In this document: piece after piece, positions 23,919 through 45,000 of the stretch
Layout: each line of letters begins with the position of its first letter
Numbering within the stretch: the first letter of the stretch is position 1
Made by a program: the position numbers and the translations under genes
Assembly (NCBI GenBank): GCA_018398765.1
Contig: JAHBMJ010004592.1
Coordinates: 1-45,000 of the forward strand
Length of the DNA stretch: 45,000 nucleotides
Reading direction: 5' to 3'
Source: Chromera velia
Taxonomy: Eukaryota; Sar; Chromeraceae
Notes under the pieces: model-generated
Seen by the model: only the letters and a program-made list of their open reading frames with translations
The model's database searches: none
What the model was told of the DNA's origin: nothing

Positions 23919-24155
23919 AGTATGGTATAATCATTTTTTTAAGCTAGACAAACTAGTGGGTAAATCGAGTAGCAAAGACAGATTTATTGTAAAGTTCTCT
24001 TATGTCCATAAATATGTATAAGTTGAAGTCAAGTTCTTGATATTATAGAAATAATTTAGACAAAAAAAGTTTAAAAATAATCTTTTTACGTCGTACTCTA
24101 CTCATACACAGTTTTTAAAGATGCGTTTCTCCCTAGGTTTCTCCTATATTAGATC
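23919..24155. repeat. 237-bp direct repeat, left copy (target-site duplication of the LINE)
   Basis: Identical by eye over its full length to 25834-26070. It starts AGTATGGTATAATC and ends CTATATTAGATC. Just outside the copies the sequences diverge: left neighbour AACAAAAACTT and right neighbour TCGATTCAAC belong to the host TIR element. Confidence 0.9.
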
Positions 24156-25643
24156 CTCTCCTCTCCTCTTTCTCCTCTCCTCTTTCTTCTTTTCATCAAC
24201 AATCTGCATAAGTCTGTCAGCTCCGATAATGAAAACAGGAATCAAAGCTTGGCTGGGGGTACTGATAGAGAGACTCCTGTCAGACTGTCTGACATTTTAA
24301 TCGAAAGCATCGGATATGCTGACGACCTTGTTCTGTTTGCTCACAGTGCTTCTGACTTGCAGAAACGCCTGTCTCGCCTCGAGGACCATTGTAAGGAGCA
24401 CGGCCTGAAGGTGAATTTAAAGAAGACAAAAGTTATGCGTCTCTCCTCCCCCCACCCCGACCTAGTACCCCGGACCCCTTTTCTTTATGAAGGCAGACCA
24501 GTGGAAGCGGTGAATAAATATAAGTATTTGGGCAACTGGGTTTTTGAGGGCGGGGACCTTAGCAGGATAGTCGAAGCCCGCATTGAGGCGGCAGAGAAGG
24601 CTTTGGGGGCGGTGTTTGGTACTCTCTCTTCTCTGAGCTTTGTTTTTCCCTTTTCTAAAATTACTTTGTTCAAGGCCCTCTGGTTGCCAGTCGTGCTGTA
24701 TGGACTGGAAACGATCCCACTGAGAAAGACAGATGTTGCCTGCCTCGATGCATTACAGTTACGTTTTGTTCGATGTTGTTTTGGTCTCTCTCATCACTCC
24801 TTTGTTTCGCCTTCCCTTCTCTCTTTCTCTCTCGAGCCATTCAGTTCTCTACTTGGTAAGTTGAGTGGGGGCTTCATCCAATGCATCAAATCGATCGACC
24901 GTGCTCTACTCCGGGCAGTGTGGAATGAGTGCTTGGCTGGCTCATGTGAACCCTTTGTTAAGACAGTAAAATGGCTGGCCGTTCCATTAGATTGCTCCCT
25001 TTTGTGGCCTCTATTGCCAAGTATGGTGGGGGACAAGTTTAAAGGGAAGGGCAAGGACAGAAGGAAAAGGACGGCAAAAAAGACCGTAGAGGGTGCCTGG
25101 CTGTCCGACTGGTTGAAAGAAGAAACTAGAAACGTTAGAGACAGAGACGGAATTTTTCCCCACCTTGCGAATCTCTCCCCTTTCCAATCAGAGAATCCGT
25201 CCAGACAGCGTTTGGCCATGCACCTTCTGAGTGAAAGGAAATGGCGTCCGAGAAGTGAAATGATAGAGTGCAGTGTTGAACCTCTGCCAAAGAGTCTGTT
25301 GCAGTCCTCTGCAGGCTTTCGTACGCTTTTCAGGGCTCTCACAGGGGGGGATATAGATAGAACCCAACCGGAACGGCTGTGCGATAAATGTTTGTCCCCC
25401 TCGCGTGTGATCAAAGATGAAGTTCATGTTCTGACGGAATGTAAGGACACAGAAAGGGAACGGAACAGGCTGAAAGAACTGTACAAAATTGTGAAGCAGA
25501 AAGCACCCATTAACATAAGAATACAGATCGCACAACGCGTTGCAGGTGCAACCGGGAGGGGCACTTCTGATAATGAGAAAAAAATGAAGGATATGGTGTT
25601 GCTGTTGTGTATAATTCTGCCTAGAAGCGGTTCCAAACTATAG
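24156..25643 (+). CDS. 5'-truncated non-LTR retrotransposon reverse transcriptase, C-terminal half
   Basis: The frame is open from the left repeat border (24156) to TAG at 25641-25643, 495 codons without a break. It enters in the RT domain: LSPLLFLLFINNL corresponds to the conserved PLSPxLFxLFIxxL block. It continues to the catalytic box GYADDLVLFAHS (Y-A-D-D; about residues 55-58 of this fragment) and the HGLKVNLKKTKVM and KYLGNWV blocks that follow in LINE-type enzymes. Near the end is a CxxC...HxxxxC zinc-knuckle (CDKC then H-VLTE-C), common in C-termini of non-LTR elements. The upstream endonuclease and RT N-terminus are missing, so it cannot act alone. No native start codon remains. Clade is undetermined. 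Confidence 0.9.
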   Translation, partial: LSSPLSPLLFLLFINNLHKSVSSDNENRNQSLAGGTDRETPVRLSDILIESIGYADDLVLFAHSASDLQKRLSRLEDHCKEHGLKVNLKKTKVMRLSSPHPDLVPRTPFLYEGRPVEAVNKYKYLGNWVFEGGDLSRIVEARIEAAEKALGAVFGTLSSLSFVFPFSKITLFKALWLPVVLYGLETIPLRKTDVACLDALQLRFVRCCFGLSHHSFVSPSLLSFSLEPFSSLLGKLSGGFIQCIKSIDRALLRAVWNECLAGSCEPFVKTVKWLAVPLDCSLLWPLLPSMVGDKFKGKGKDRRKRTAKKTVEGAWLSDWLKEETRNVRDRDGIFPHLANLSPFQSENPSRQRLAMHLLSERKWRPRSEMIECSVEPLPKSLLQSSAGFRTLFRALTGGDIDRTQPERLCDKCLSPSRVIKDEVHVLTECKDTERERNRLKELYKIVKQKAPINIRIQIAQRVAGATGRGTSDNEKKMKDMVLLLCIILPRSGSKL

Positions 25644-25833
25644 CCGACTATCTCAAGAAGGTCCATTCTGTCGATAAGGCAAGTTGAGGCGAATCGATCC
25701 GATTGGCATGCAGGCTTCCTCATCCCCCCCCCCATGAATGTGTGCTCTGGGTTGTCCTCAAAGCCTTGCTAGTGGCTTGGGATTTGGCGTCGCTAAATCT
25801 AGGATTTAACCCTCAATCATCATCATCATCATC
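24156..25833 (+). mobile_element. 5'-truncated LINE insertion
   Basis: The inserted segment lies exactly between two identical 237-bp repeats. Its 3' end is a short (ATC)n tail at about 25815-25833, after ~170 bp of 3' UTR. A truncated 5' end, simple-repeat tail and target duplication are the signature of target-primed reverse transcription. The unbroken ORF and identical flanks indicate a recent insertion. Confidence 0.88.
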
Positions 25834-26070
25834 AGTATGGTATAATCATTTTTTTAAGCTAGACAAACTAGTGGGTAAATCGAGTAGCAAAGACAGATTT
25901 ATTGTAAAGTTCTCTTATGTCCATAAATATGTATAAGTTGAAGTCAAGTTCTTGATATTATAGAAATAATTTAGACAAAAAAAGTTTAAAAATAATCTTT
26001 TTACGTCGTACTCTACTCATACACAGTTTTTAAAGATGCGTTTCTCCCTAGGTTTCTCCTATATTAGATC
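25834..26070. repeat. 237-bp direct repeat, right copy (target-site duplication of the LINE)
   Basis: Right-hand copy of 23919-24155, offset exactly 1915 bp, no differences seen. It starts directly after the (ATC)n tail of the LINE. Confidence 0.9.
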
Positions 26071-26530: not shown

Positions 26531-26667
26531 TCAAAGTGGCAACCGAGAAGAGGACAGGATTGTACACGCGGCCGCCAGAAAGCATCCATACAGCTGCAAC
26601 GGCAAAGAAATTATAGCCAAATGAAGAACCAGAAAAGCCAAAGATTTTGATATTGAGGATTTAGCGC

Positions 26668-26770: not shown

Positions 26771-29700
26771 GAGGGCGCAGACTGCATACCCAGAAAAGTG
26801 TGCTTCCGATGAGCAGCAAGATGCGTAAAACTGGGAAGACTCCACACAATCAGAGTTGCAGGCAAGGATGCAGCCACTGCAGGACGAAAAGAAAGGCCTG
26901 ATTGTCCCAATTAATGAAGGTTGTGTCCATCTGTGGACCAGCATGCATGTTTCTGCATTCCTTTCTGCCTCCTGACTTTAAAACAGTGACTTACCTGAAG
27001 CAGCTGTGCGGGGTGAAGATGCAACAGAAGTTGCACCCCCTCTCTGAACTCTCTCAATGAAATGCCCCTGTCCCCCAGCCCGCTCTGTATCGAGGGGGAA
27101 TCGAAAAAAGCACGGCCGACTGCGGTCATTCTCCGAAAGCATTCTCTCTCTCGGTTGCTTGCACTCGTGTGCATCCATCTCTGAAGAGAGTCAGTGCACC
27201 CCCCACTCCCATCTCTGTCCTTATGGAACGAAATCAATCGCTCCCGTAAACTACAGTCTGCAGTCTCTGCATCCTCCTCGCTCCACCGCATCACTTCCCG
27301 TCCCTCTCCTTCTCCTTCTCCTTCTCCGTCCTTCCCACTCTTGCAAGTGACCTCCGACCTAGATTCCCCCCCCGAGAGAGGATGGAACGTCTCGCGTCCG
27401 CCTAGCATCATGGTGCTCCTATCCTGGCGAGTCCTCAAGAGGGCTTCCGGCTTTGAGTCATTCTCATTCTCAAATTCTAGAAGAGCTCCTTGACCTTGGG
27501 GAGGAAAGTCAGAGTTCCTACCTGTCTGAGCTGTGGGCCTCCGGACTTTGATTTTCTCCGAATCAGCGGGCGTCTCCTGACGAGGAGACTGCTGATGTGC
27601 GCTGCTTGCCTGAGGGACAGCAGCAGATGCCTGGTGCTCATCCCTCAAGAGAACCGGTTCAGCTACCGGTGTGACAGTCACCCTCACAGAAGGGACGCTA
27701 TCACGAGCAAGACACGGCAGCCCGGCTGTGCTGTCACGGGGGGATAGAGGAACGTGAGGGCGAGAGTCGCTCGGCATGGCTCTGCTTCTCTTGTCTGCAA
27801 AGTCAAGAATTGAGGAATGGTCTGAGAGGGGGAGGCCGTCCAAAGAAAAAGACAAAGACATCTCACTTTGAATCTGAGAGTCGCTACCCCCCTCTCTTTT
27901 GTGTGCGGTCTGAAGAGGGTGAAGAGGGTCAGCAGGCTCGGCAAGGACTGACACCTCCCTCCCCTCTCCTCCTTCTCCCGCCCACTGCTGACGCCTCTCT
28001 TCCTCCAAGGCCCCAGCGGCCGCCTGCAAGTCTGCAGCGGCGGCTTGCGGAACCCTGCAGTTGTCTTTCATCTGCCCGTGGGGGCAGCTGGGAGGAGGAG
28101 CGCCTGGATGAGGGACCCTGAGCAGCTCTCTGACGACTACACAGTGTTCTGCAGTGTCTTCACATGTGCTGGCGATGAACAGTTTGTCCCTTTCTTCCTT
28201 GGCCCGCCCGTCTCCCATCGAGCCCCCCGACAGAAGGCCCAGACGAAAGGAGAAACTGTGGAGCAAGGGAAGGTCACGGAGGTCCTGGGGAGAAGTGCTG
28301 AAGGAAAGGTTTCGAACATTTCCAGAGTCTTTCTCTTCTATCGCTACTGAATGTGCATCTACCTTTCTGCTCTCTCTCTCCGAATCCAATACCCTCTGTA
28401 CTTCACGCACCTCTGTGCTTATGTGCTTCCAGCAGCGCTCAAAGGCGCGGCGCTCTGACGGGAAGAAAGTCGGAAGCAAATTTTGAGCCTGGGGGTCCTT
28501 TTCTCGAGTCGAGGGCTGCGTTTCTACTTTCTCGTTTCTCCTCCGTGTGTCGTGTTCCTCAAAATTGAACCTCGAATTCCTCTTTACCACTGCCTCCCTC
28601 GACTTTAGAAGAACACGTTCCCTCCTCTTGTTCGCCCTTTGAGAAAGTAGCCTGACGGGCACAAGGGAGTGACCCCCTTCCTGCAGGCGCACACGTAAAA
28701 CGCCCCCACTGCAGCACTGGCTTTGATCAGTGTGCTTGTCACACCGGAATGTTCGAGAAAGGAAACGACAATGGACGGCATTACCGCAAGATGACATTCC
28801 CGTTTTCTTCTTCTCCCCACCCCTACAGCAACATGGACTGAGTCTGTCTGTGCACCGCCTCCACCCCGATTCCTTCAATCTCCGTGGAGGGAGGCAGGTC
28901 CACACCGCAGTCTCCTTCTCCCCCTTCTTCACAGACAGGCGGTCTGAGAGAATGAAGACGAGACACCTGACAACGAAAGCAGCGATCAAGGTGAGCAGCA
29001 GGTGAACGAGGACCACTCTGACTGCCAGACTAATCGTTGTGTCTGTTACAACCTGCAAAAATAACATCAAGGCAGAAGAGCTAGTTTCAAGGCCCACAAA
29101 GAAGCACAGATGATGACATGTAGTGTTCAAACACTCACATTGTTGAAACGACAGAAACAGCGCAACAGGACAAGGAGAGCGCCACTCAATGCGATGAAAG
29201 AAAGCGCTACTGACCTTCAAGACATTCACACCAGCATACCAGACAGCGAGGGAGAAGCTCTCCAGCCAGTTGAGGGCTGCAGACCTATAGGGGCGTAGAG
29301 TTGTCTGAAGGGCGAAAAACAAGACCCCGTGGACATTCAAAATCGCGTACCGCGCAGAAGCGCTGGGGGCAAGAAAACAGAGCGGAATGCTCAAACGCCG
29401 TGCGAATATGACCAGCTCCCAGAAGATAAGTGAATCACGCTATCCCCCCAGCAACAAACTGAATTGCCGACGGAAGGAAGCCAAGCGCATGCGACCACTT
29501 CTCTGCATCAACACAGAGTAGCTTGTCTGAGAACTTTCTTTGTCGACACCTGCCCTAACACATCGCTTCAAAATTCCTCGCCTTCTCCGAGTCCTTTTCT
29601 CTCCCGTCTGGTCATCCTTCGAGACAGAAAACGATCGCTTGGCGCTGCCCCCCGCGCTGAGTCTGGAACTATCCAACAGCATCAAGGACCCAACCAAAAG

Positions 29701-32700
29701 GGGTACACCGAACACCCCCCCCAACAAGACACCCAAAGACACATACCACCATCGTGAGTAGACCCGATTCTCCCAAACACATCTGATTGAAGGAAACTTG
29801 TGGAGACGGCGCTCCGTTAGAGAAGGATGGAGAGGCTCGCACCTCAGGGAGGCCATTGGAGCTTCCACAAGAGACGAAGCCCAAAGGAACACCGTGGAAA
29901 GGAGTACGGGGGTCATGTCCTGATGGAGGGAGTGAAGCCGAGCCCAAAAGCTCGTCGCCCTGTCAAACTTACGGCGGAAGACACCCAGGCATCGCCTGTT
30001 AAACTCTAAACGCATGCGAAAGCGCTCACACACCAACGGGAAGCTCTGTGCAGATGCATCGACGGCATCGGCGTCTCCAGTCTCTCCGGCGGCGGTCATT
30101 GAGACCGCTCTGGAGGGCCCCGCTTCTCTTGGGTTCCTTTCCGGAGGCACACACGCAGCATTGGAACCAGCTGCTGCGCATGCTCTCGTGTTTGCACTGC
30201 TCAGGCGAGTCTTTTCGCTCTCTTGCCGCTTCCCTCCTTCTCCATTCTGGCCGGCTCCACAACAATAACTGGACAAAACAACCAGGAACCCGACAGTACC
30301 AATCAAACAGACGACAGCCAGGGGGGCGAGAAGAGAGAGCAGCTCCCGACCTGCCATGTTGGAACTTCCAGTCCGATCAAACAAATCGAAGAGGCACTTC
30401 ATGCTGAATATCTCGCCAACAGTAGGAATGTTTCTCAAGACGTCGAGGACCTCCTCTGCCGCTCGGACCATGAAGAAAGCCGCAGAGGAATCCCAGCTCT
30501 CTCTGTCACTCCCTACCCACTGTGAAACCTCTTCTCGGAATACAATCAATGCAGGACGCGCCAGGTCAGCCAAGAAGCCTAGGCAAGTGAGAAACACTGT
30601 GAGGATTTTCACAGCGATGGCGTAATCGGCAACGTCCAGCTTCGGATTGTCCTTCGTGACCACGAACGTGTAGACCACAACCACAGCCACCAACAGGAGA
30701 AACAGTCCGAGTGCTGTGAGGACCCTCAGACCGGGTGAGGGGCACTGGCGGCACCTGATTTCCGCCCCTCTCCTCAGCAATAAGAGCCCCTTCTCGCACT
30801 CTGTGCAAAGAGGCTGCGGGCAAAGACAAAGAGGCAGAAGGAAAAAGCCGTGAGGACAAGAGGGAAGCTGCTTCCTTCACAACAGCGAAAGTCCTGCACA
30901 CTTAGCCTCTATTCATGAAGTCTTCGCACAAGGTTGAAGCAGTCTATAACAGAAACGGAGGTAAGCTCGTTACTTCAAGACAGAAAGGCTACCAGTAGAC
31001 ACAGAAAGATTTACTTCTTCTCGATCATCCAACGTGATCGACTCACCCCCACATGTCCAGACAGACAGACAGTCCCCGCCGTCTCATTCTGGAAATGGAC
31101 CTGGAGGGGGCTGACGGTCACAGAACTGTCGTCGTCGTTTGGGGGGTCAACAGACAGACAGGTGTTGTCAAAGGGGCATGGAACAACCACCGCACGGGGC
31201 CAGCGCTGTACAAGCGAGAAGTTCGTGTGTGGGACCGGCCGGGGGTGTGCCATGAGATCCCTCAGCATCTGCTGGAGGCTGTCTTGTGCGAGTGCCTCGA
31301 GGAGGCGCAAGGGCGACAGAGTCTGGGCAAAGTCTTCAGTCTGAGTACCACATGCGTTTTCTCCCCGAAGCTCTCTACGGTCTGCCCTCGAACCCGAAAG
31401 AGCTTTTGGAAGGTTGCTGCTGTGTTTGAGGACCTGGGAGATTTGCGCAGGGGTGAGTGGGAGGCCGCTGCAGGTCGCATTGAAGGGGCAAGGCTGGCAG
31501 GAGCCTGATGTGAAAAGAGTGAGGGGGTCATTGTGAGTGATGATATCGGGGAGTGATGTCAAAATACTGCCGTCAGGTGCTTTTGTGTCGGGGGGAACAA
31601 AATAGAAATTCTCCATGCAAATGCACTGAGAGGGCTTTATGGACCCTGGAATGCTCCCGCTGTTGGGGCTGCACTGTCGGCAGACGGATGCGCCCCGCAC
31701 ATCTGTGTCTCTGTAGAAGCCCTCGTTGCATCGGCAGTCGGAGGGGGCGCTGCTGCCGGGTTGGCTGGAACTGTTGGGGTCGCATGGACGGCAGACGAAA
31801 CCCTCCTCTGGGGAGCTGCGATAGAAATTCTCTCTGCAATAATTCATGCACGTGCATGTGTTGCACAATACATGCAGGTTTTTAAGAGTACAGAACACAG
31901 CGAGTAACTCTGCTAGACAACAGAACAATACACGGGAACAGCACTCCTTCTCAGTAGATCTCAGACAAACGTAGCTCCTTTTTCGCGCAGTAATGGGAAC
32001 GTCCTGTGCCTCTGCGAATGGACATTTTTTGGGGGTCCTTTTCTGTCCTTCCCGTGTCTTCCTTTTTCTTTACCACCCTTTTTCCTTGCTGGCATCGCGA
32101 GCTCATTCGCGCCCTTGCTCGCTGCAGTGCATCATTCCTTTTCCGGTTTATGAACTGGCTGCATGACTGTGGGCCACAGAGAGATAGGAAAAGTCTTTCT
32201 GACTGACAGAAGTATCGGAAAGCAGGTCATTGACTGACTTGCAGAGGCAGGCAGAGTCAGTGACTGACTTGCAGAGGCAGGCAGAGTCATTGACTGACTT
32301 GCAGAGGCAGGCAGAGTCATTGACTGACTTGCAGAGGCAGGCAGACTCGGCGGTCAGTCTGTCAGCGTTCAGAGGGCAGCGATCAGCGGTGACAACAATC
32401 GTGCAGTTCCCTGTGTTTCCTGCCATGTCTGTCCCCTCCACCAGAACGTTGAGAGTCTCCTCAGAGGAAAAGTGACGCTCAAGTGCCGTCTCATTGGGGG
32501 TCCAAAAGGTCAGACGGACGTTCTCGGGGGCCTCCACATTGTCCCTCACAGTTGGGCCCCGAGGAAAACTGAGAGACGGCATTTGCCTGCTCACTTTCAG
32601 TCTCTGGGGTGGGGGACAGATGAGCAACGGGGCCTCTTTATCTGCAGATAGAAGACCGTGAACACGTACAACGTTCGAGAAGTGCTTGAAGACACATATC

Positions 32701-35700
32701 AAGTCAGAATAGCACAGCTTCACAAAGACGTCTATCAAAAGATGCTTCTGGCAAATCCACAGCTGCCAATCCAGGAGTAATCAACACCAAGCAGACGAAG
32801 ATAACCTCAGTTGAAAGACAGTAGTGTTAAAGGCGGCCAAACAAGTTGCTGGGAGACTTCATTCCTTAGCACCAGCTGGTAGCGATCTTAGACATACAAT
32901 CACACCGGACCCTTCCTGCAGTCCTTCCCCGAACGTAATCGTCTCTACAGTTGCAGCTGAAACGATCGATAAAAAAACTCAACTCAATGTAGAGGCTTCA
33001 TTTCATTTCACTTCATACGGCTGACCCACCGATCACATCCAGGCGGAGAAGGCAGTGCGAAGCCCCACCCCCTTCCCAGGATGCCGTGACCTGAATCGCA
33101 TAGCTCCCGACTTGAAAGAGGGCATCCTCAACCTGTGGTTCGAACGACACGCGCAGCATCCCTGGAGAGCTCTGAGGGTTTGTTCTAACTCCCAATTTGT
33201 CTCTTCTTGAGTCGAGGAGCTCCTCCTCTGATCCCCTCCAGAACGCCACACCCTTATCTGCCTGTTGGGTCAAAGACTTCGGACACCTGAGGCCAGGCTT
33301 TTCTGCAGAAATTGTGCATGCATTCTGTATGTATGAATGCATGAAAATGAATGCGGACACATGAGGCCAGGCTTCTCTGCAGAAACAACCGAAAAAAACG
33401 GAGTGGAGGATCTGAAGGTTTACCCGGAGTGTATGTTTTGCTTTGCGGTCTCTTTCTTATACACCCCGTCAGACAGCCATGGTATCCAAAAAACGAGAGA
33501 CACGGAAAAGGACCGTGCCTGCTCAGAGAAATGCAAGAGCGAATACATATGGATGTGACACAGAAAGTCTGGGGCCTTGTACACCATACAAACAACAAAT
33601 TCAAAATCTGATGGAATGAAGGAAAAACCCAACTGACTGACTCAGGAGAGGCACAAACGACGAGACGCTATCCACGCTCATTCCGATTCCTAGTTGCCCA
33701 TGTGTCCCTCTGCCCGCACTAAGCGCCCACAACTCCGTCAACACGAACGAGCTGTCATACCCACAACTCTTTGCAAGCGATTCCACTCTCACTCCTGGCA
33801 CCTCAACAGGCCTGGACCGAGTTTGAGAATCCCCCAGGGCCAGTTGTCCCCCGTCATTTCTCCCCCAACTGTAGAGCCGCCCGTCCGTCAGCAGAGCCAG
33901 ACAGTGCTCACCCCCACAGCTCACCTCCTTGACTTCACCCGACAGACCGACTACTAGTTGGGGGATTCTACGATCCCTCCGGTCTCCCAGACCGATCTGG
34001 CCGTAATCATTCAACCCAAAACTGTATACTCTCCGGGAGCGAGTCAGAACCACAGAGTGGGAGGTCCCCGCAGCTACAGACACCCCTTTCTGCTCCCCTC
34101 CCTCCCCGACTACAACTCGAACAGGAAACAGTGCTTGCTCTTCGTGCTCTCCCGTGCCCAGCTGTCCATGCAGATTCGACCCCCAGGCATACACTGCCCC
34201 CGACGCGCAGACAGCAAGCGTGTGCCCCGTTGCTGCCGTGTGAGCCCCTCCAAAAACCACACCCGTCACCGTCTCATTCAGGAGGGCCCCCCCCACAAGC
34301 CTCGGACTCAAATGATCTTCCATGTCTCCGTGCCCTAGTTGCCCGCTCCCCCCCCTCCCCCATGTGAACAGCCGCCCCTGCTCTGTCCATGCAGCGCTGC
34401 ACGCAAAGCGGCACATAGAGTTGAGTAGGACCGGGTAAGCGTGACAAGGGATGCTTCGTTTCGATAGAAGAGAGCCGACAGATATCTTCAGGCGCACTCA
34501 CACGCGCGAATGCACGCACGCACACACACGCATACCCACATACCTGTGTTGGTGCCCGCACACCACCCCCGCGAGCCTGTCGACGACTCCCGAAGACGCG
34601 CCCCCCTCTGAGAGATCCACGCTCACCTCACGCGGAACCACCTCCCCTCCATCTGCACTGCCCCTCACACCCAATCCCAGTTGCCCATAGTAGTTGTGCC
34701 CGAACGCAAAAATCGTTCCGTTGGCAACCAAAACCAAAGAGTGACCACGATCATCGTTGAAGTCCCCCCCCCCTCCGCAGGCATCTATCACTTCAGAGAG
34801 GCCAGGCACTTTGGTTGGAGAATGCCGATCGCTGAAGTCTCCCACTCCGAGTTGTCCGTCTCGATTCCTCCCAAATGCGAACATCTGACGGTCATCGTCC
34901 ACCAGCAGAGAGTGGGAGTACCCAAGAGTCGCCCACCGAGGACGGACCTGAAGAGCTGCAATTTAGGGACACAAAGATGAATGAAGTCAACGAGAGTGTT
35001 TCCGGACAAATTCATCCATGAAGACAAAAAGAAGAGTTCTTTGTTCGATGCATCCCTTCTCAAATCGAAACTGAGAGAGAGAACCGACTTGACAGAAGGC
35101 AAAAGCAGCCAAAAATTAAGCAGTCTTCGCAACGAAATGCATCCCTCAAAGAAATACCCGAGGAAAGATGAGAGCGGTGCAAGCAGGGATCGAGGCAAAA
35201 GAAGAAGGAATCGTCGGCTTCAGACTTAAGTCTTCGAGTCTCAATGCGGTAGAGAAGCAGAATAAATAAAAGAGAGAACAAAAAAATGCACGGATCCCCT
35301 TCGAAACTCACCGATGGAGTGTGAGACCTGCATTTGCAGCTGAAAGCTTCTTGCCGAGGAGTCATCACTGTAAATCCAAATCAGAAGGGACCCGTTGGGC
35401 ACTCGCAGTGTTTCATGGCTGCTTTTCCAGCTTCCGAAGAGGCACTTGCAAGAGTTATGTAAAGGCGCTTCTGCGCATGAGAGCCCTTCCAAGAGCATGA
35501 AAAAAACCCCAACAGAAGTTTCTCCCCCCTGCATGAAGTGATAGCAAAGAAGTATGGACTCATAATCAATGTGATTACAGGCGACTTTTCTACCGTCCAC
35601 AGAACTCCACTGCGGGAGACGAGCCGGTCTTGCACGCTTTCAAGGAGTGTAGCGTGGCTTTTGCAGGTTCCTTGGAGCCACGTACTTACCCCTTTGCTGA

Positions 35701-36442
35701 CCTCTGCTGTTTCTGCCTCTACACCCACAGCCAGAAGGGAGACCTCTGAGAGCTCGAGCCTGTACCAAACCCCCACCTCGCCGTCTTCCCCCCCAGAAGG
35801 CCGGCATGCATGGGCGTCTTGTGTGGCCCCGGCCAGAGTTCCCTTGACGGTTACAGAATCTTGGCCGTCGGAGAGATCACCCGTCAGGTCGACAGCACTC
35901 GAAGGCTCGTCATTGGCAGGCAATGGGTCAGTGCGATAAGGGGGCGGAAGCGGAGACGTTGGAGACGGAAGCGGGGGGATGAGGGGTGAAGCGGGTGTTG
36001 CGGAGGCAACGGGAGGAGGGGCGGTGGGGGCAGCATCGATTTTTCGGGCCATAATGAAACAGCCAACGTCACCTTTCCAAAGCGGTGCAAGGCCCAGCCA
36101 GCAGCCGTTACACTGGAAGGCACAGCCGTTTTCTCCCGGTTGTCTTTCGGCTCGGCATTTGCTCAGGCACTGTGCGTCGCTGCTGACGGTGCCGAGTCCT
36201 CTTTGCGACCCTTCCACTGTGTAACCACACATGAATCCTGCAGGAGATAGTCCGTCTTCGTCAGTCCGAGGACAGTTGCCTGGATTGATGTTCGTGTCGG
36301 AATTCTGTCGCTCTCCGCTGAGGGGTGAACTCTCCGGCGGAAGCAACGACGGAGTCGGTGCCGCCTCCTGGCGGCCCGTGCCGTCTCCTTTGCAGAAAAG
36401 GAGCGAGACAGCGATTGCAAGGAGAGCTGACGTGGTTGCCAT
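26531..36442 (-). CDS. Secreted-N-terminus multi-membrane receptor-like protein: Cys-rich, RCC1, HYR, GCC2/GCC3, TM, with in-frame TAG
   Basis: Model (minus): 36442-35690, 35609-35312, 34955-34544, 34396-33642, 33302-33030, 32641-32329, 31833-31047, 30813-29215, 29052-26995 and 26593-26531; 7311 nt, 2437 codons with the final TGA. All nine junctions keep phase. Residues 1-20 are a signal peptide (LLAIAVSLLFC). ~55-135 is a Cys-rich PAN/Apple-like region, then Pro-rich. ~180-350 resembles a pre-peptidase C-terminal (PPC) beta domain. ~351-740 has seven RCC1 repeats (FAFGRNRDGQLG, FTWGRGGSGQLG, YAWGSNLHGQLG...), a full propeller. ~741-830 and ~831-925 are HYR-like. ~935-1020 holds CxC GCC2/GCC3 repeats. 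From ~1225 there are eight or nine membrane helices, then a ~680-residue cytosolic tail with EF-like DRDGSG. An in-frame TAG (29442-29440, codon 1655) sits within the membrane region; coding character continues past it. The last 21-codon exon is the least certain. A surface receptor or transporter role is inference. Confidence 0.82.
26663..26775. repeat. AG/CT microsatellite in the last intron of the receptor-like gene
   Basis: A GA dinucleotide run with a few interruptions (GACAGAGACAGAGACAG, GAGAGCGAGAG). On the transcribed minus strand it is a long CT tract. It lies 70-180 nt upstream of the proposed final acceptor (26594-26595), where it can serve as pyrimidine-rich intron sequence. Confidence 0.8.
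32229..32348 (-). repeat. Four 30-bp units carrying four equivalent splice donors
   Basis: Each unit encodes SACLCKSVND (one has SVTD) in frame with the preceding HYR exon and contains a TGCAA|GTCAGT donor in the same phase. Exon ends at 32329, 32299, 32269 or 32239 would all join exon 31833-31047 in frame, adding 0, 10, 20 or 30 residues with extra CxC pairs. I used 32329 in the gene model. The joined product reads ACLCKENFYRSS at the start of the GCC2/GCC3 region. Confidence 0.75.
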
Positions 36443-37043: not shown

Positions 37044-39488
37044 ATGAAAGAGCTGTTCGTACTGAGTCTTGATGTGGAAGGGGGCGGCAACTGTCTTTAC
37101 GGTTGTATTGCCTATTGGACGAAGGGAAGCGCGGAGGCACATGGTGCGGTTCGGAATGAGGTCTGTGACAAGCTTGAGGAGATGGCCAAGGAGAATAACA
37201 ATATGCCCAACTTTTGGAGTCATCCCTCTGGAGACGGCGGGCTTGCTTTCAAAACCTTCGGCCAGTACATCAACAACCAGAGACAGCTCGGTGAGTGGGG
37301 GTCTGACCAAGAACTGGCACCAGCAGAACAGTGCTACGGACCATTTTTTGTCTTCTCGAATGGGCGCGACGGAAAGATTCGGTACATGCCGAGAGGATCG
37401 ACCCGACTTGCCCCACAAACCTGTTGCTACACACGGGGCTCCATTACAAAGTCCTTGCGGTTGTTGACCGGTGTGCCGCTGACCACAAGAGCACCGTGCG
37501 AGACTTCGCACACCCGACCTGCATCTCTCTGAACGATGCGGCCCCCGTCTCCCCTTTCGACTGGGGAAACGAGGAAGAGACGAACAACGAACAAAAGCAT
37601 CTGTCAGTTCACGCTGCTGTAGTTCTGTCCTCGTTTGCATTCAACAGCTCTCAAAGATGAGATGCAACGCGCTTTGTTGAAGGGTCTTTCGAAGCTCATC
37701 TTCAGAAAATCTGTTTCTCTGTAATTTATTCACCCTGTTGACGTCTAGCTCCTCTCGTCTTAAGTTTGTGTTCCCTTCTCCTGTGCGTAAACAGATCGAG
37801 TCCCTTCAATGCCCTTTTCAAAACTCACTTTGTCTCCTGTGCGTAGACAGATCGAGTCCCTTCAATGCCCTTTTCAAAACTCACTTTGTCTCCTGTGCGT
37901 AGACAGATCGAGTCCCTTCAATGCCCTTTTCAAAACTCACTTTGTCTCCTGTGCGTAGACAGATCGAGTCCCTTCAATGCCCTTTTCAAAACTCACTTTG
38001 TCTCCTGTGCGTAGACAGATCGAGTCCCTTCAATGCCCTTTTCAAAACTCACTTTGTCTCCTGTGCGTAGACAGATCGAGTCCCTTCAATGCCCTTTTCA
38101 AAACTCACTTTGTCTCCTGTGCGTAGACAGATCGAGTCCCTTCAATGCCCTTTTCAAAACTCACTTTGTCTCCTGTGCGTAGACAGATCGAGTCCCTTCA
38201 ATGCCCTTTTCAAAACTCACTTTGTCTCCTGTGCGTAGACAGATCGAGTCCCTTCAATGCCCTTTTCAAAACTCACTTTGTCTCCTGTGCGTAGACAGAT
38301 CGAGTCCCTTCAATGCCCTTTTCAAAACTCACTTTGTCTCCTGTGCGTAGACAGATCGAGTCCCTTCAATGCCCTTTTCAAAACTCACTTTGTCTCCTGT
38401 GCGTAGACAGATCGAGTCCCTTCAATGCCCTTTTCAAAACTCACTTTGTCTCCTGTGCGTAGACAGATCGAGTCCCTTCAATGCCCTTTTTAAAACTCAC
38501 TTTGTCTCCTTTTTAATTCCTGTACTCTCGTGTCTTTTGCAGGCAGTGTCAAGAGATTGAGATGAAAAGGGCGGAGGAAGAAGATCTCAAGCGAATCAGG
38601 AGACGGGAAGAGAAGAGACAGTGGGAAGAAATCGAAAGAAAGATGGCAGAGGAGGCAGCGGAGGAGAGAAAGAGGGTGGAAGAAATCGAGAGGAAGAAGG
38701 CGGAAGACACCAACAAGAAAAGAAAGAGGGCAGTGGAGAAGGAGAGAGGGAGGGCTGAATCAGATGTGGCCGAGATGGAGATGCAGAAGAAGAATCACGA
38801 CTCCCAAAAAACCCGGACCGAGTTCTCCTTCTTCAACAACTGGAACCCCAAACTGATGAAGGAAGCCTACAAACTCCTGTAGGTCCTCTCTCCCGTGCCC
38901 TTCCTCTTACTGCCAAAATTTCATCCCCCAAATTTTGTCACCGCTTTGCCCGCAGTCTCCCATGTGATTGTCAGTCTAGTCTTGGGTTTCTTTCAGAGTA
39001 TTGACTCAGAAAGGAATCTTCAATTTCTTCGCCCACGTGAATCCCCACAAGCAGCTGTACTTTCTCCCCCTCCGTCTCTGTCCAAGTTTGTCTCCGATTG
39101 CCTCTGTCTGTCTTGTTGTCTCTCTGTCCGTATCTCTCCCTGTCTCCCTGCATGTGAATGTCTCTTCTTCTGTCTCCCGCTCTCTCTGTGTTTCCCTTTC
39201 ACAACCCTCCTACCTTGCTCCCTCTGCCTGTGGATGGGTGTGCGGGGGTGCGATCGGTCTAAGGTGCGTGTCGACACGGGTGCCACAAGCATCCATTTGT
39301 TGCCAGGCATTTCTAGCCCCTTCTGTCCCTGAATTCCTTCTTTGCCCGGTCATCTGGTGTTTCCTTCTTAATTCTTCAGGAAAATGGTCGTAGAGCAACG
39401 TCAACGCCGGGGACGGAAACCCATCGACCAGATGGCGCTCATGATGGTGCACATTGCGATGGTGTACAGCGGAGGTTGGGAAGACTGA
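37044..39488 (+). CDS. OTU-type cysteine protease with coiled-coil C-terminus; frameshift in exon 1
   Basis: Model: 37044-37602, 38543-38878, 38997-39056 and 39380-39488. Phases of the last three junctions match (all phase 2), stop TGA. Exon 1 from ATG 37044 encodes the OTU nucleophile block (DVEGGGNCLYG, Cys17; family usually has D-G-N-C, here G-G-N-C). It then gives a typical middle part (FGQYINNQRQLGEWGSDQEL, FVFSNGRDGKIR). Near 37385 the frame must shift: the original frame runs to a stop at 37532, while the next frame gives PTNLLLHTGLHYKVL with the catalytic His. The intact part downstream is a ~110-residue charged coiled coil (KRAEEEDLKRIRRREEK...) followed by TQKGIFNFFAHVNPHK and a basic, Met-rich end. 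OTU proteins remove ubiquitin; that function here is inferred and would be lost if the frameshift is real. The start could lie further upstream. Confidence 0.7.
37791..38510. repeat. 56-bp minisatellite, 12.9 copies, inside intron 1 of the OTU gene
   Basis: The unit starts ACAGATCGAGTCCCTTCAAT and ends CTCCTGTGCGTAG. Twelve full units and a 48-bp partial one lie head to tail without spacers. All look identical except the last, which has TTTTTAAAAC in place of TTTTCAAAAC. The intron is 37603-38542. This is not a CRISPR array because there are no spacers. Confidence 0.95.
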
Positions 39489-41871: not shown

Positions 41872-42915
41872 TTACAGTACAAGGAGTCTTTTCTGTCTTG
41901 CCAACAACTCAAAATTCAAAAAAAACCTGTGTTCTGGAAGGCCCTTACATGTCAGACCCAAACTTTGCATGCTGATTGAATACACAGAACCCGAATTTTT
42001 CCGTTTGCGCTTGTCAAAAGAACTCAGCTCTATTGAGCTTGCTCCGATATACAACACATCAAGCGCAGAAGTACCAAAGCAGAGAGTGCTCGGAAACGGC
42101 TCCGGCACTTCCACTTCCAAAACACACTCCCCATTCGGACTCAATCTAAGGACTCTCCCACCCCCCCAGTGGGCTACCCACACGTGGTGCTGAGAGTCCG
42201 TCACTGCCCCCGTCAGGTACCCCCTGCTTGAGTCAGTCGACTTGAAAAAAGTGCTTCCCGGGCCCACGACAGATCGAGTCGCATGGTCATACTGAAAACG
42301 TTTCAAGACCCTCCCCGGCCAGTCTGTTGCGTACATTGTGATCCCGTCCTTTGCGAAACAGAGCCCGTCCCCCTTCCTAAAGTCTCCCCACGGTTCTGCG
42401 TCCGTGAGTCTCTTGAAGACCCCGTCCCGTCCCAACGCATGCAAAGATGACGTCTGGCCTCGGCAGGGTCCGTCCATGCCCCAGAGCTCGGCGGCCCCCA
42501 CGACCACGAAGTGACCAGACTTGTCTGTCCGCCCTCCGTTGGGGAACGTGGACGTGTCTTCGGGCTCAAATTCTGCGAGAGGAGAGGGGACATAAGCGAA
42601 CGTTTGGAGATCCAGCAAGGTGACCCCAAACTCTAGGGCCACTGCGAGAATGGTGTCGTGGCAGTGACGCACGAATCCAAAGCAAAAGGGTCGGTGCTGG
42701 AGGTTCAGTACTGTCAGGTTTGACTCTTGTTGGTCGTCTTCTGGGTCGTATAGGAAGAGCTTTCTGCCCTCCTGGTCCACCCAGAGAAGCCTCCCCAGCC
42801 GTTCTGACCAAAGCATGCAGGCAGCCTGCTCATTTCGGGAGTCGACCTCGAAGGAGGGGAGCGTGTTTGTGATCTGGTGCAACCGCTCCCTCTTCACACT
42901 GGAGCCAGACCCCAT
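41872..42915 (-). CDS. SMP-30/gluconolactonase-like six-bladed propeller protein
   Basis: Single-exon frame, 347 aa, stop at 41872. I chose the ATG at 42915; the frame is open a little further up but has only a GTG there. The fold is recognised from CMLWSERLGRLLWVDQEGRKLFLYDPE (family: P-x-W-x-x-x-x-G-x-L-x-W-V-D), FPNGGRTDKSGHFVV (family N-D-G-x-x-D-x-x-G-x-F-W), GDGLCFAKDGITMYATDWPGRVLKRF (family N-G-L-A-x-S-x-D-G-x-x-x-Y-x-x-D) and HVWVAHWGGGRVLRLSPNGE. The Asn in FPNGGR and the Asp in ATDWP, two usual metal ligands, are kept. The N-terminal Glu ligand is replaced (Ala before CMLW), and the second Asn is Asp (KGDGL). The substrate is therefore uncertain; lactonase or esterase activity may be altered. 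MGSGSSVK at the start fits an N-myristoylation signal, suggesting membrane attachment. An upstream exon cannot be excluded. Confidence 0.82.
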   Translation of the reverse strand: MGSGSSVKRERLHQITNTLPSFEVDSRNEQAACMLWSERLGRLLWVDQEGRKLFLYDPEDDQQESNLTVLNLQHRPFCFGFVRHCHDTILAVALEFGVTLLDLQTFAYVPSPLAEFEPEDTSTFPNGGRTDKSGHFVVVGAAELWGMDGPCRGQTSSLHALGRDGVFKRLTDAEPWGDFRKGDGLCFAKDGITMYATDWPGRVLKRFQYDHATRSVVGPGSTFFKSTDSSRGYLTGAVTDSQHHVWVAHWGGGRVLRLSPNGECVLEVEVPEPFPSTLCFGTSALDVLYIGASSIELSSFDKRKRKNSGSVYSISMQSLGLTCKGLPEHRFFLNFELLARQKRLLVL

Positions 42916-45000
42916 CAAGCAAGGCAGCACAGAGCACACGTTCGAATGCGGCTACTCAACTCCCATTGACTCGATGTACGTAGACGGTGAATTGCCAGGT
43001 CGTTCAGTCTGCATGTCAGATCGAATGATTCTCACTCCATGCATGGAATTCACAGACCGATGGGTGGCTTCGCAATTCGTGTTGATTGACACAGGTTTGT
43101 CGTCAGCCTCTGCACGTCTGGACTGCGATCGACCCTGGAGCACGAGGGGGCAAAAGCCTCTATACTTCATGGCGACCATGCGGATCAGCTCGTTGAATGA
43201 TTGAAGAATCGATGATTGACTCCATATATTAATTCGATCCATGCATGTGCAACTTGATCACTGTATATATATTTAATTCTTTAGTACAGTACATCGGTCA
43301 CTGTATCGGTGTGCATGCATGCATGCACGGAATTTAATTGATGTATACAAGTCAAATCGCGCGCATTGCGCGCGGAAGTAAGTCTAGCAGAGCGGATCGG
43401 CTCAGTAGCAGTAAACTAGTAAGAAACTCCAGCTCCTTTACTCAAGTGCGCGACTTTCCGCTAAAAAAAAAAGCAAAATTAAACGAAAAAATTGCACCAT
43501 TTTTTCTCATTTTTTGTAAAGAGTCACTCGCGTATTGTACATATATGGCAGGTTGAAGGGGTGACGGAATATTCCAAATAAATTAAAAAAAAATAGGAAA
43601 TCAATCAAACTTATATTTAATTTAACATCTCAGTTTCACGGTAAGGAGAAAACAGTATACAACTGCCTTACGGAACCCAAATAGTACATCTTAGATAGCA
43701 AATCTCACAAGCAGAAGGCCCCCATCATAACATTTTTAACATCCGCGCGCGCATGCGTGCGTGCCCCGGCCTCCAGAGGGCGCAGTTGTCTCGGGAGACG
43801 GAGATGGGAGACTTGCCTCTCGCGGTAAGGCGGCAGCTACATGAAAAAGTCGACAGAGACAGATGAATAAATTGAATGGGTCGAGTTCTCATATCAACAA
43901 AGAGATATCCACACGTTGCAACGAAGCGCAAAAGGAAATGAAAGGAAAGACAGATGAATTGAAGGAGAGATGAAAAATGTATGGGGTCTCCCCTCTTTGA
44001 AGAAAGAAATCATCAGACAAGACAAAACTTATGATACCTTCCTTGTTGTGAAAGAAGTAGAGAGCAAACAGAACCTCGAGCGGAATTAAGTCTGGCACCT
44101 CAACAGCAATGAAACTAGAGGGGGCTTACCAAAACATATCCCTGGTCAGGGGTCTTCATAACGGCGGTGCGGATCCGCATTGCTGACCGCGCAAGGCACA
44201 AGGCACTCGGAATAGCACTTTAACCCCACCCTCATCACTACGCAGCGAGCCACCTGCCAGCACATCTGGTTTTCATAAGGAACTCATTTTTCAAAAAGAG
44301 TGTATCATATCTGTATAAATATATTTAATAATGAATTTTAATCATTTTAATTTCAATGCATCTCTTTCTGAGAAGTTAATTGTATATACAGCTTTCTTGA
44401 GCCAAAGAGCAAAACAAACTATCATCCGAAACCATAGTTAGATTGCTGTAGGAACAATTGCCTGTGACCCGCTGTGACTCGACAGAAGAGGAAAATAAAT
44501 ACCAAAAAGAATGGTACAGCTGTAAGGTCCATTTCATCGGAAGCAAAAAGGGAACTGATTGACTGACCTACTGACTAACTGAATCACTTATATACATACT
44601 CATTAACTAGTGGTGATAGAAAGTGGCTATGACTGACTATTTATCTGTCTAACTGTCTGTAAAAACGAATAAATATATGGCTTCTCTGCCTGCCTGTCTT
44701 CCTGCGTGCCTGCCTGCCAGGAGGGGCCCTGTGGAGTCCTGTCTGCCTGCCTGCCTACCTGCCTACCTGCAGGCCTGTCTACCTTCTTGTCTGCCTGCCT
44801 GAATGTTCATATGTATATCGATATGTATATATGTATGAGCTGGGAGACAGAGAGAGGGAGAATGTGCGCAGTTGGTGCTTTAAAACTCTAGCAGGACTGC
44901 ATCAACGGTGCATTTCATTATGTCGGCATTTTTGCCTCTTTTGTCTGCGTTTGTCTGTGTGCGTAGGTGACGGCTAGCTCAGTCACGTTCTACTCTACCA
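42916..45000. other. Intergenic to window end; no gene recognised
   Basis: Upstream flank of the SMP-30-like gene. It contains a GCATGCATGCATGC run near 43312-43326, AT-rich DNA, and CTGA and CTGC/CCTGC-type tetranucleotide runs between 44557 and 44800. Open frames are short and compositional. Confidence 0.45.

Follow-up and report, generated by a model that had tools for sequence, protein, structure and literature searches.

Organization of the gene

The window, that is, the whole stretch of 45,000 nucleotides analysed here, comprises bases 1-45000 of contig C3576 in a genome of Chromera velia that was searched as 177.8 Mb in 4040 contigs. Spliced genes, histones and 11 matches to the alveolin family IMCp agree with this chromerid origin, the last of these weakly, since the genome of a bacterial control, Caulobacter vibrioides, matches IMCp as well. 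Comparison of the window with paralogous loci, together with GT/AG sites, predicts a gene of ten exons and 2436 codons that runs from 36442 down to 26531 of the minus strand, a model that is known from sequence alone. In this model, all exon junctions are in phase with GT/AG sites, and the introns measure 80 to 495 nt as judged from the modelled exon ends. The modelled frame contains stops at codon 1655 (TAG) and codon 2437 (the terminal TGA) and nowhere else; 1654 codons precede the TAG and 781 come behind it. The description in the earlier note of an otherwise intact gene of 2.4 kcodon, with about 780 codons beyond the stop, thus holds for the sequence-based model. The predicted features, in the order of transcription, are as follows:

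35690..36442, minus strand: exon 1, with the ATG start and a hydrophobic N-terminus, possibly a signal peptide (hydropathy only)
35312..35609, minus strand: exon 2 (gene model; resembles one paralogue)
34544..34955, minus strand: exon 3, RCC1 repeats (PF00415, E 2.3e-18)
33642..34396, minus strand: exon 4, RCC1 repeats (PF00415, E 2.1e-56)
33030..33302, minus strand: exon 5 (gene model and paralogue comparison)
32329..32641, minus strand: exon 6 (gene model; further in-phase donors at 32299, 32269 and 32239)
31047..31833, minus strand: exon 7, the cysteine-rich part (gene model and cysteine columns)
29215..30813, minus strand: exon 8, with most membrane segments and the TAG (gene model, hydropathy)
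29440..29442, minus strand: the in-frame TAG, codon 1655 of 2436, in exon 8 (letters, gene model, paralogue column)
26995..29052, minus strand: exon 9, 3' of the TAG, with the last membrane segment and a long tail (gene model, hydropathy)
26531..26593, minus strand: exon 10, the final 20 codons and the terminal TGA (homology, gene model)

A 30-nt tandem duplication at 32329-32239 (minus strand) presents four identical splice donors, all in the same phase, so that exon 6 could lengthen by 10, 20 or 30 residues with the frame kept. The intron after exon 8 (29053-29214, minus strand) is 162 nt long and open in frame; the frame would therefore survive its retention.

The surroundings of the gene include a reverse-transcriptase fragment (RVT_1, E 1.2e-12, plus strand) between two identical 237-nt direct repeats (window 23919-26070), approximately 0.46 kb beyond the last exon, and the identity of the repeats suggests a recent insertion. 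Upstream of the gene, a tandem array with a unit of approximately 56 nt, read by eye, occupies window ~37780-38510. An SMP-30/gluconolactonase domain (PF08450, E 5.5e-34) is encoded by an open frame at window 41875-42951 on the minus strand.

Domains and membrane layout

When ten stretches were scanned against Pfam, RCC1 passed the cut-off in two of them (exons 3 and 4), and the remaining eight gave no family above it; RCC1 and RCC1-like were the only families to reach their cut-offs. The cysteine-rich exon 7, which four paralogues share at 58-65% identity, gave no Pfam match above cut-off in the five copies scanned. The name 'GCC2/GCC3', under which the gene had initially been described, did not reach a Pfam cut-off in these scans. 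Hydropathy suggests an N-terminal segment and, further on, approximately five segments ahead of the TAG and two to three behind it. The TAG, which the earlier note placed inside the membrane region, borders a hydrophobic segment (approximately residues 1659-1677) and is not in a helix core, as judged from hydropathy only. Two queries for solved structures related to the membrane part returned no match at E values up to 1.

In its general layout, a large protein with a cysteine-rich part followed by several membrane segments (the latter by hydropathy), the window family resembles the cysteine repeat modular proteins (CRMPs) of Apicomplexa and Chromera. The likeness is one of layout, and the family differs from the CRMPs in its RCC1 repeats, which do not appear in the CRMP domain list as far as the available text gives it.

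The TAG codon and the corresponding site in other copies

The minus strand at 29451-29434 reads CTG GGG GGA TAG CGT GAT. As reported in the earlier note, the TAG at 29442-29440 is in frame within exon 30813-29215, and the frame is the same on both sides. A hidden intron that removes the TAG was considered and rejected: the flanks FSLLLGG and FWELVIFARRL are conserved in the closest copies, and an intron of 80 to 495 nt would delete these conserved residues. A search of the genome for a nearly identical copy or allele that has a sense codon here found none: the 14 other DNA matches of at least 158 bases have 65-74% identity, and a match of 52 bases has 85%.

A survey of the site with a 109-residue segment of the C3287 paralogue as query found 22 places including the window, a number that is a lower bound. 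The column that holds the TAG contains 16 Tyr, four Phe, one gap (in the C4005 copy near 81 kb) and a single TAG, that of the window, which is also the only place among the 22 with a stop anywhere inside the segment. Since the 20 other copies with a residue in the column have Tyr or Phe, the TAG replaces a conserved aromatic residue, and the earlier note's expectation of a Tyr at this position holds. In the same stretch as the window TAG, the C4005 copy (L033, near 80954-81190) has a frameshift and a small deletion.

Selection and age of the stop

Selection was assessed with a three-sequence codon model (window, C3287 and C3568) on 611 codons upstream (exons 7-8) and 486 codons downstream (exons 8-9), with columns near gaps and stops dropped. 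All resulting omega values are rough, synonymous sites being near saturation (branch lengths 1.7-3.8 per codon). Upstream of the TAG, omega is 0.128 on the window branch vs 0.171 on the other branches; downstream, the values are 0.229 and 0.282, respectively. In this model, no relaxation of selection was detected on the window branch (2dlnL 1.7 upstream, 0.7 downstream), as expected if the lesion is young; that function has been lost is something we infer only. An omega of 1 for the downstream part is rejected (2dlnL 50), with approximately 0.16-0.33 (interpolated) lying within 3.84 units. The part after the TAG has thus been under purifying selection for most of the history of the copy's branch.

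The 781 codons after the TAG contain no second stop or frame break, and both downstream introns keep GT/AG. If this part were unselected since the TAG arose, neutral divergence would amount to less than ~0.035 per site with no indels, or 0.008 at an indel/substitution ratio of 0.2; the ratios from 0 to 0.2 are assumptions. Such a clean, selected downstream part suggests that the TAG is young on the branch or that the downstream part is still used; an assembly error is a less likely explanation for the same pattern. Readthrough or a base error would likewise leave a clean downstream frame.

The same data bear on the idea that truncation is regulated or neofunctionalised, with the 1654-aa short protein as the selected product. 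The upstream part is indeed intact across 1654 codons; the selection to which the downstream part was subject along most of the branch, however, is at odds with such a product, as are the other 21 places, all free of stops in the 109-residue segment. Furthermore, the short form would, by hydropathy, be a membrane protein without its last segments. It is therefore highly improbable that the short protein is what selection has maintained.

Apparent decay in the paralogue family

Apparent stops or frameshifts in exons 7-9 are found in six of the eight closest paralogues; the count is limited to these exons and leaves out exons 1-4, as RCC1 repeats cross-align. The C3287 paralogue is without lesions in exons 6-9, and the C128 copy is clean in exons 7-9 except for a frame change, which was kept out of the lesion count since it extends across a stretch of N. 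The six affected copies range widely: the C3568 copy has a single TAG in a variable loop; of the two copies on C4005, the one near 57 kb contains two stops, which sit in a poorly aligned tail and may be intronic, and the one near 81 kb shows at least one frameshift, within the FSLLLGG stretch; the C3899 copy has two frameshifts and one TAA; the C3197 copy has nine stops and frame changes; and the C2448 copy has nine stops, some of them in stretches of 26% identity and possibly intronic. Also uncounted is a TAG at position 394 of exon 8 in the C3899 copy, as two overlapping matches run past a frameshift there. Some of the apparent lesions may thus be intronic or assembly errors. Nevertheless, the receptor-like family is apparently decaying, and its copies would seem, from their sequences, to decay often.

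In the two most decayed copies (C3197 and C2448), TAG accounts for nine of 18 stops vs 46% expected from one-step changes in the window CDS, which indicates that TAG is not favoured among decay stops; the decayed copies contain all three stop types. The lone in-frame TAG of the C3568 copy (L011:9917-9919) falls in the loop that follows the third hydrophobic segment, the rest of exons 7-9 being open, and its context matches that of the window TAG in having GGA before and C after.

The state of the family is also relevant to the reading in which a base-calling or assembly error made the TAG while the real codon is a sense codon and the gene is intact. A run of six G and one A precedes the TAG, the 2436 codons are otherwise free of defects, and selection is seen downstream, all of which would fit an error. 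Several other copies carry apparent lesions, however, even though some of these could be errors too. The published Chromera velia assembly (193.66 Mb, 5953 scaffolds) was built from Illumina reads and corrected with ICORN (PMC4501334). If the assembly analysed here is the same, substitutions that survive this correction should, in our judgement, be rare, and a wrong base is an unlikely source of the TAG.

Genetic code, tRNAs and RNA structure

One H3-like gene (L046) has a TAG directly after its conserved C-terminus, which argues that TAG is not reassigned in the nuclear code; L047-L050, the four further H3-like sequences, terminate in TAA. No CTA anticodon occurs among 20 tRNAs that were read, of at least 52 tRNA matches in the genome. 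A reassigned code or a suppressor tRNA is thus not supported by this gene and these tRNAs. Internal stops were present in two of 12 histone matches, one with two TAA and the other being L050 (contig C1899), in which an in-frame TAG lies shortly before the conserved end, with the end still in frame; L050 is possibly a histone pseudogene.

CAR-YYA is a motif after the stop that is linked with readthrough. Simple folding of the 113 nt from the TAG onward, performed without pseudoknots, revealed no stimulating 3' RNA structure: an equal or better fold was reached by 168 of 200 shuffles (z 0.89).

Programmed readthrough or recoding, in which an amino acid is inserted at UAG at some rate to yield a long and a short form, has to be weighed against these results. 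The intact, selected downstream frame would be accounted for, the base after UAG is C, the C3568 copy likewise has a lone GGA-UAG-C in exons 7-9 that are otherwise open, and L050 has its internal TAG. On the other hand, a stop conserved among relatives, as would be expected for readthrough, was not found, the TAG being present in one of the 22 places and absent from the other 21 (paralogues only). The RNA 3' of the TAG shows no excess stability over its shuffles, the CGT GAT that follows does not fit the CAR-YYA motif, TAG terminates an H3-like gene, and a tRNA with the CTA anticodon is missing from those read. Readthrough is accordingly very unlikely to explain the TAG. The lone TAG of the C3568 copy and the internal TAG of L050 are as early decay gives, yet they also fit decoding of UAG.

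Editing of the mRNA from A to I, which would turn UAG into UGG (Trp), resembles premature stop codon correction by RNA editing as described in fungi (PMC7306014). What the two cases share is a premature stop in an otherwise intact frame; the window case is from another lineage and known from DNA alone, which makes the fungal system only a lead. One change gives Trp, and the family as a rule has an aromatic residue in the TAG column. All three stop types in the decayed copies would be left unexplained by such editing, and this mechanism has an exceedingly small chance of being at work here. Whether by readthrough or by UAG-to-UGG editing, the UAG in the window and C3568 copies might be decoded as an aromatic or other residue, so that a chromerid alga would produce these receptors in a long and a short form; this should be regarded as a long shot.

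A probable recent nonsense mutation

By far the most probable explanation is that a single base change recently created a nonsense codon in one member of a multi-copy family of large RCC1/cysteine-rich, multi-pass membrane proteins. Four lines of evidence support it: (i) the TAG at this site is unique to the window copy among the 22 places; (ii) lesions are many in the family; (iii) the downstream part is selected; and (iv) no recoding signal came from the tests of RNA structure, code and tRNAs. Among the four options that the earlier note had listed, the evidence thus favours the recent nonsense mutation, whereas readthrough and regulated truncation have little positive support.

The nonsense mutation could have acted in the following manner: one base change would have converted the conserved aromatic codon to TAG, and translation would end after 1654 residues. 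The protein would thereby lose its last two to three hydrophobic segments and the cytosolic tail, 781 codons in all. If the organism applies the exon-junction rule, nonsense-mediated decay may also remove the mRNA, as 225 nt separate the TAG from the exon 8/9 junction downstream of it. The outcome would be an early-stage pseudogene or a truncated allele or protein in a family whose copies often decay. We infer here that the TAG is a true genomic base, that it terminates translation and that function is lost.

The locus has much in common with an early-stage unprocessed nonsense pseudogene: the introns are kept (ten exons with GT/AG sites), so that the window copy is not a retrocopy, there is one premature stop, and a lesion-free paralogue (C3287, exons 6-9) exists alongside further-decayed copies. 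It differs in that the window copy has so far only one lesion, and in the signs of selection that its downstream part retains.

Evidence from RNA or peptides of passage through the stop would be of real interest, a literature search having found no report of stop codon readthrough in Chromera. Caution is advisable with automated annotation, as a gene predictor may split the TAG-bearing gene or invent an intron. As a recent nonsense mutation, the TAG would represent a clean case of a gene that has only begun to decay, within a large family whose members are probably surface proteins.
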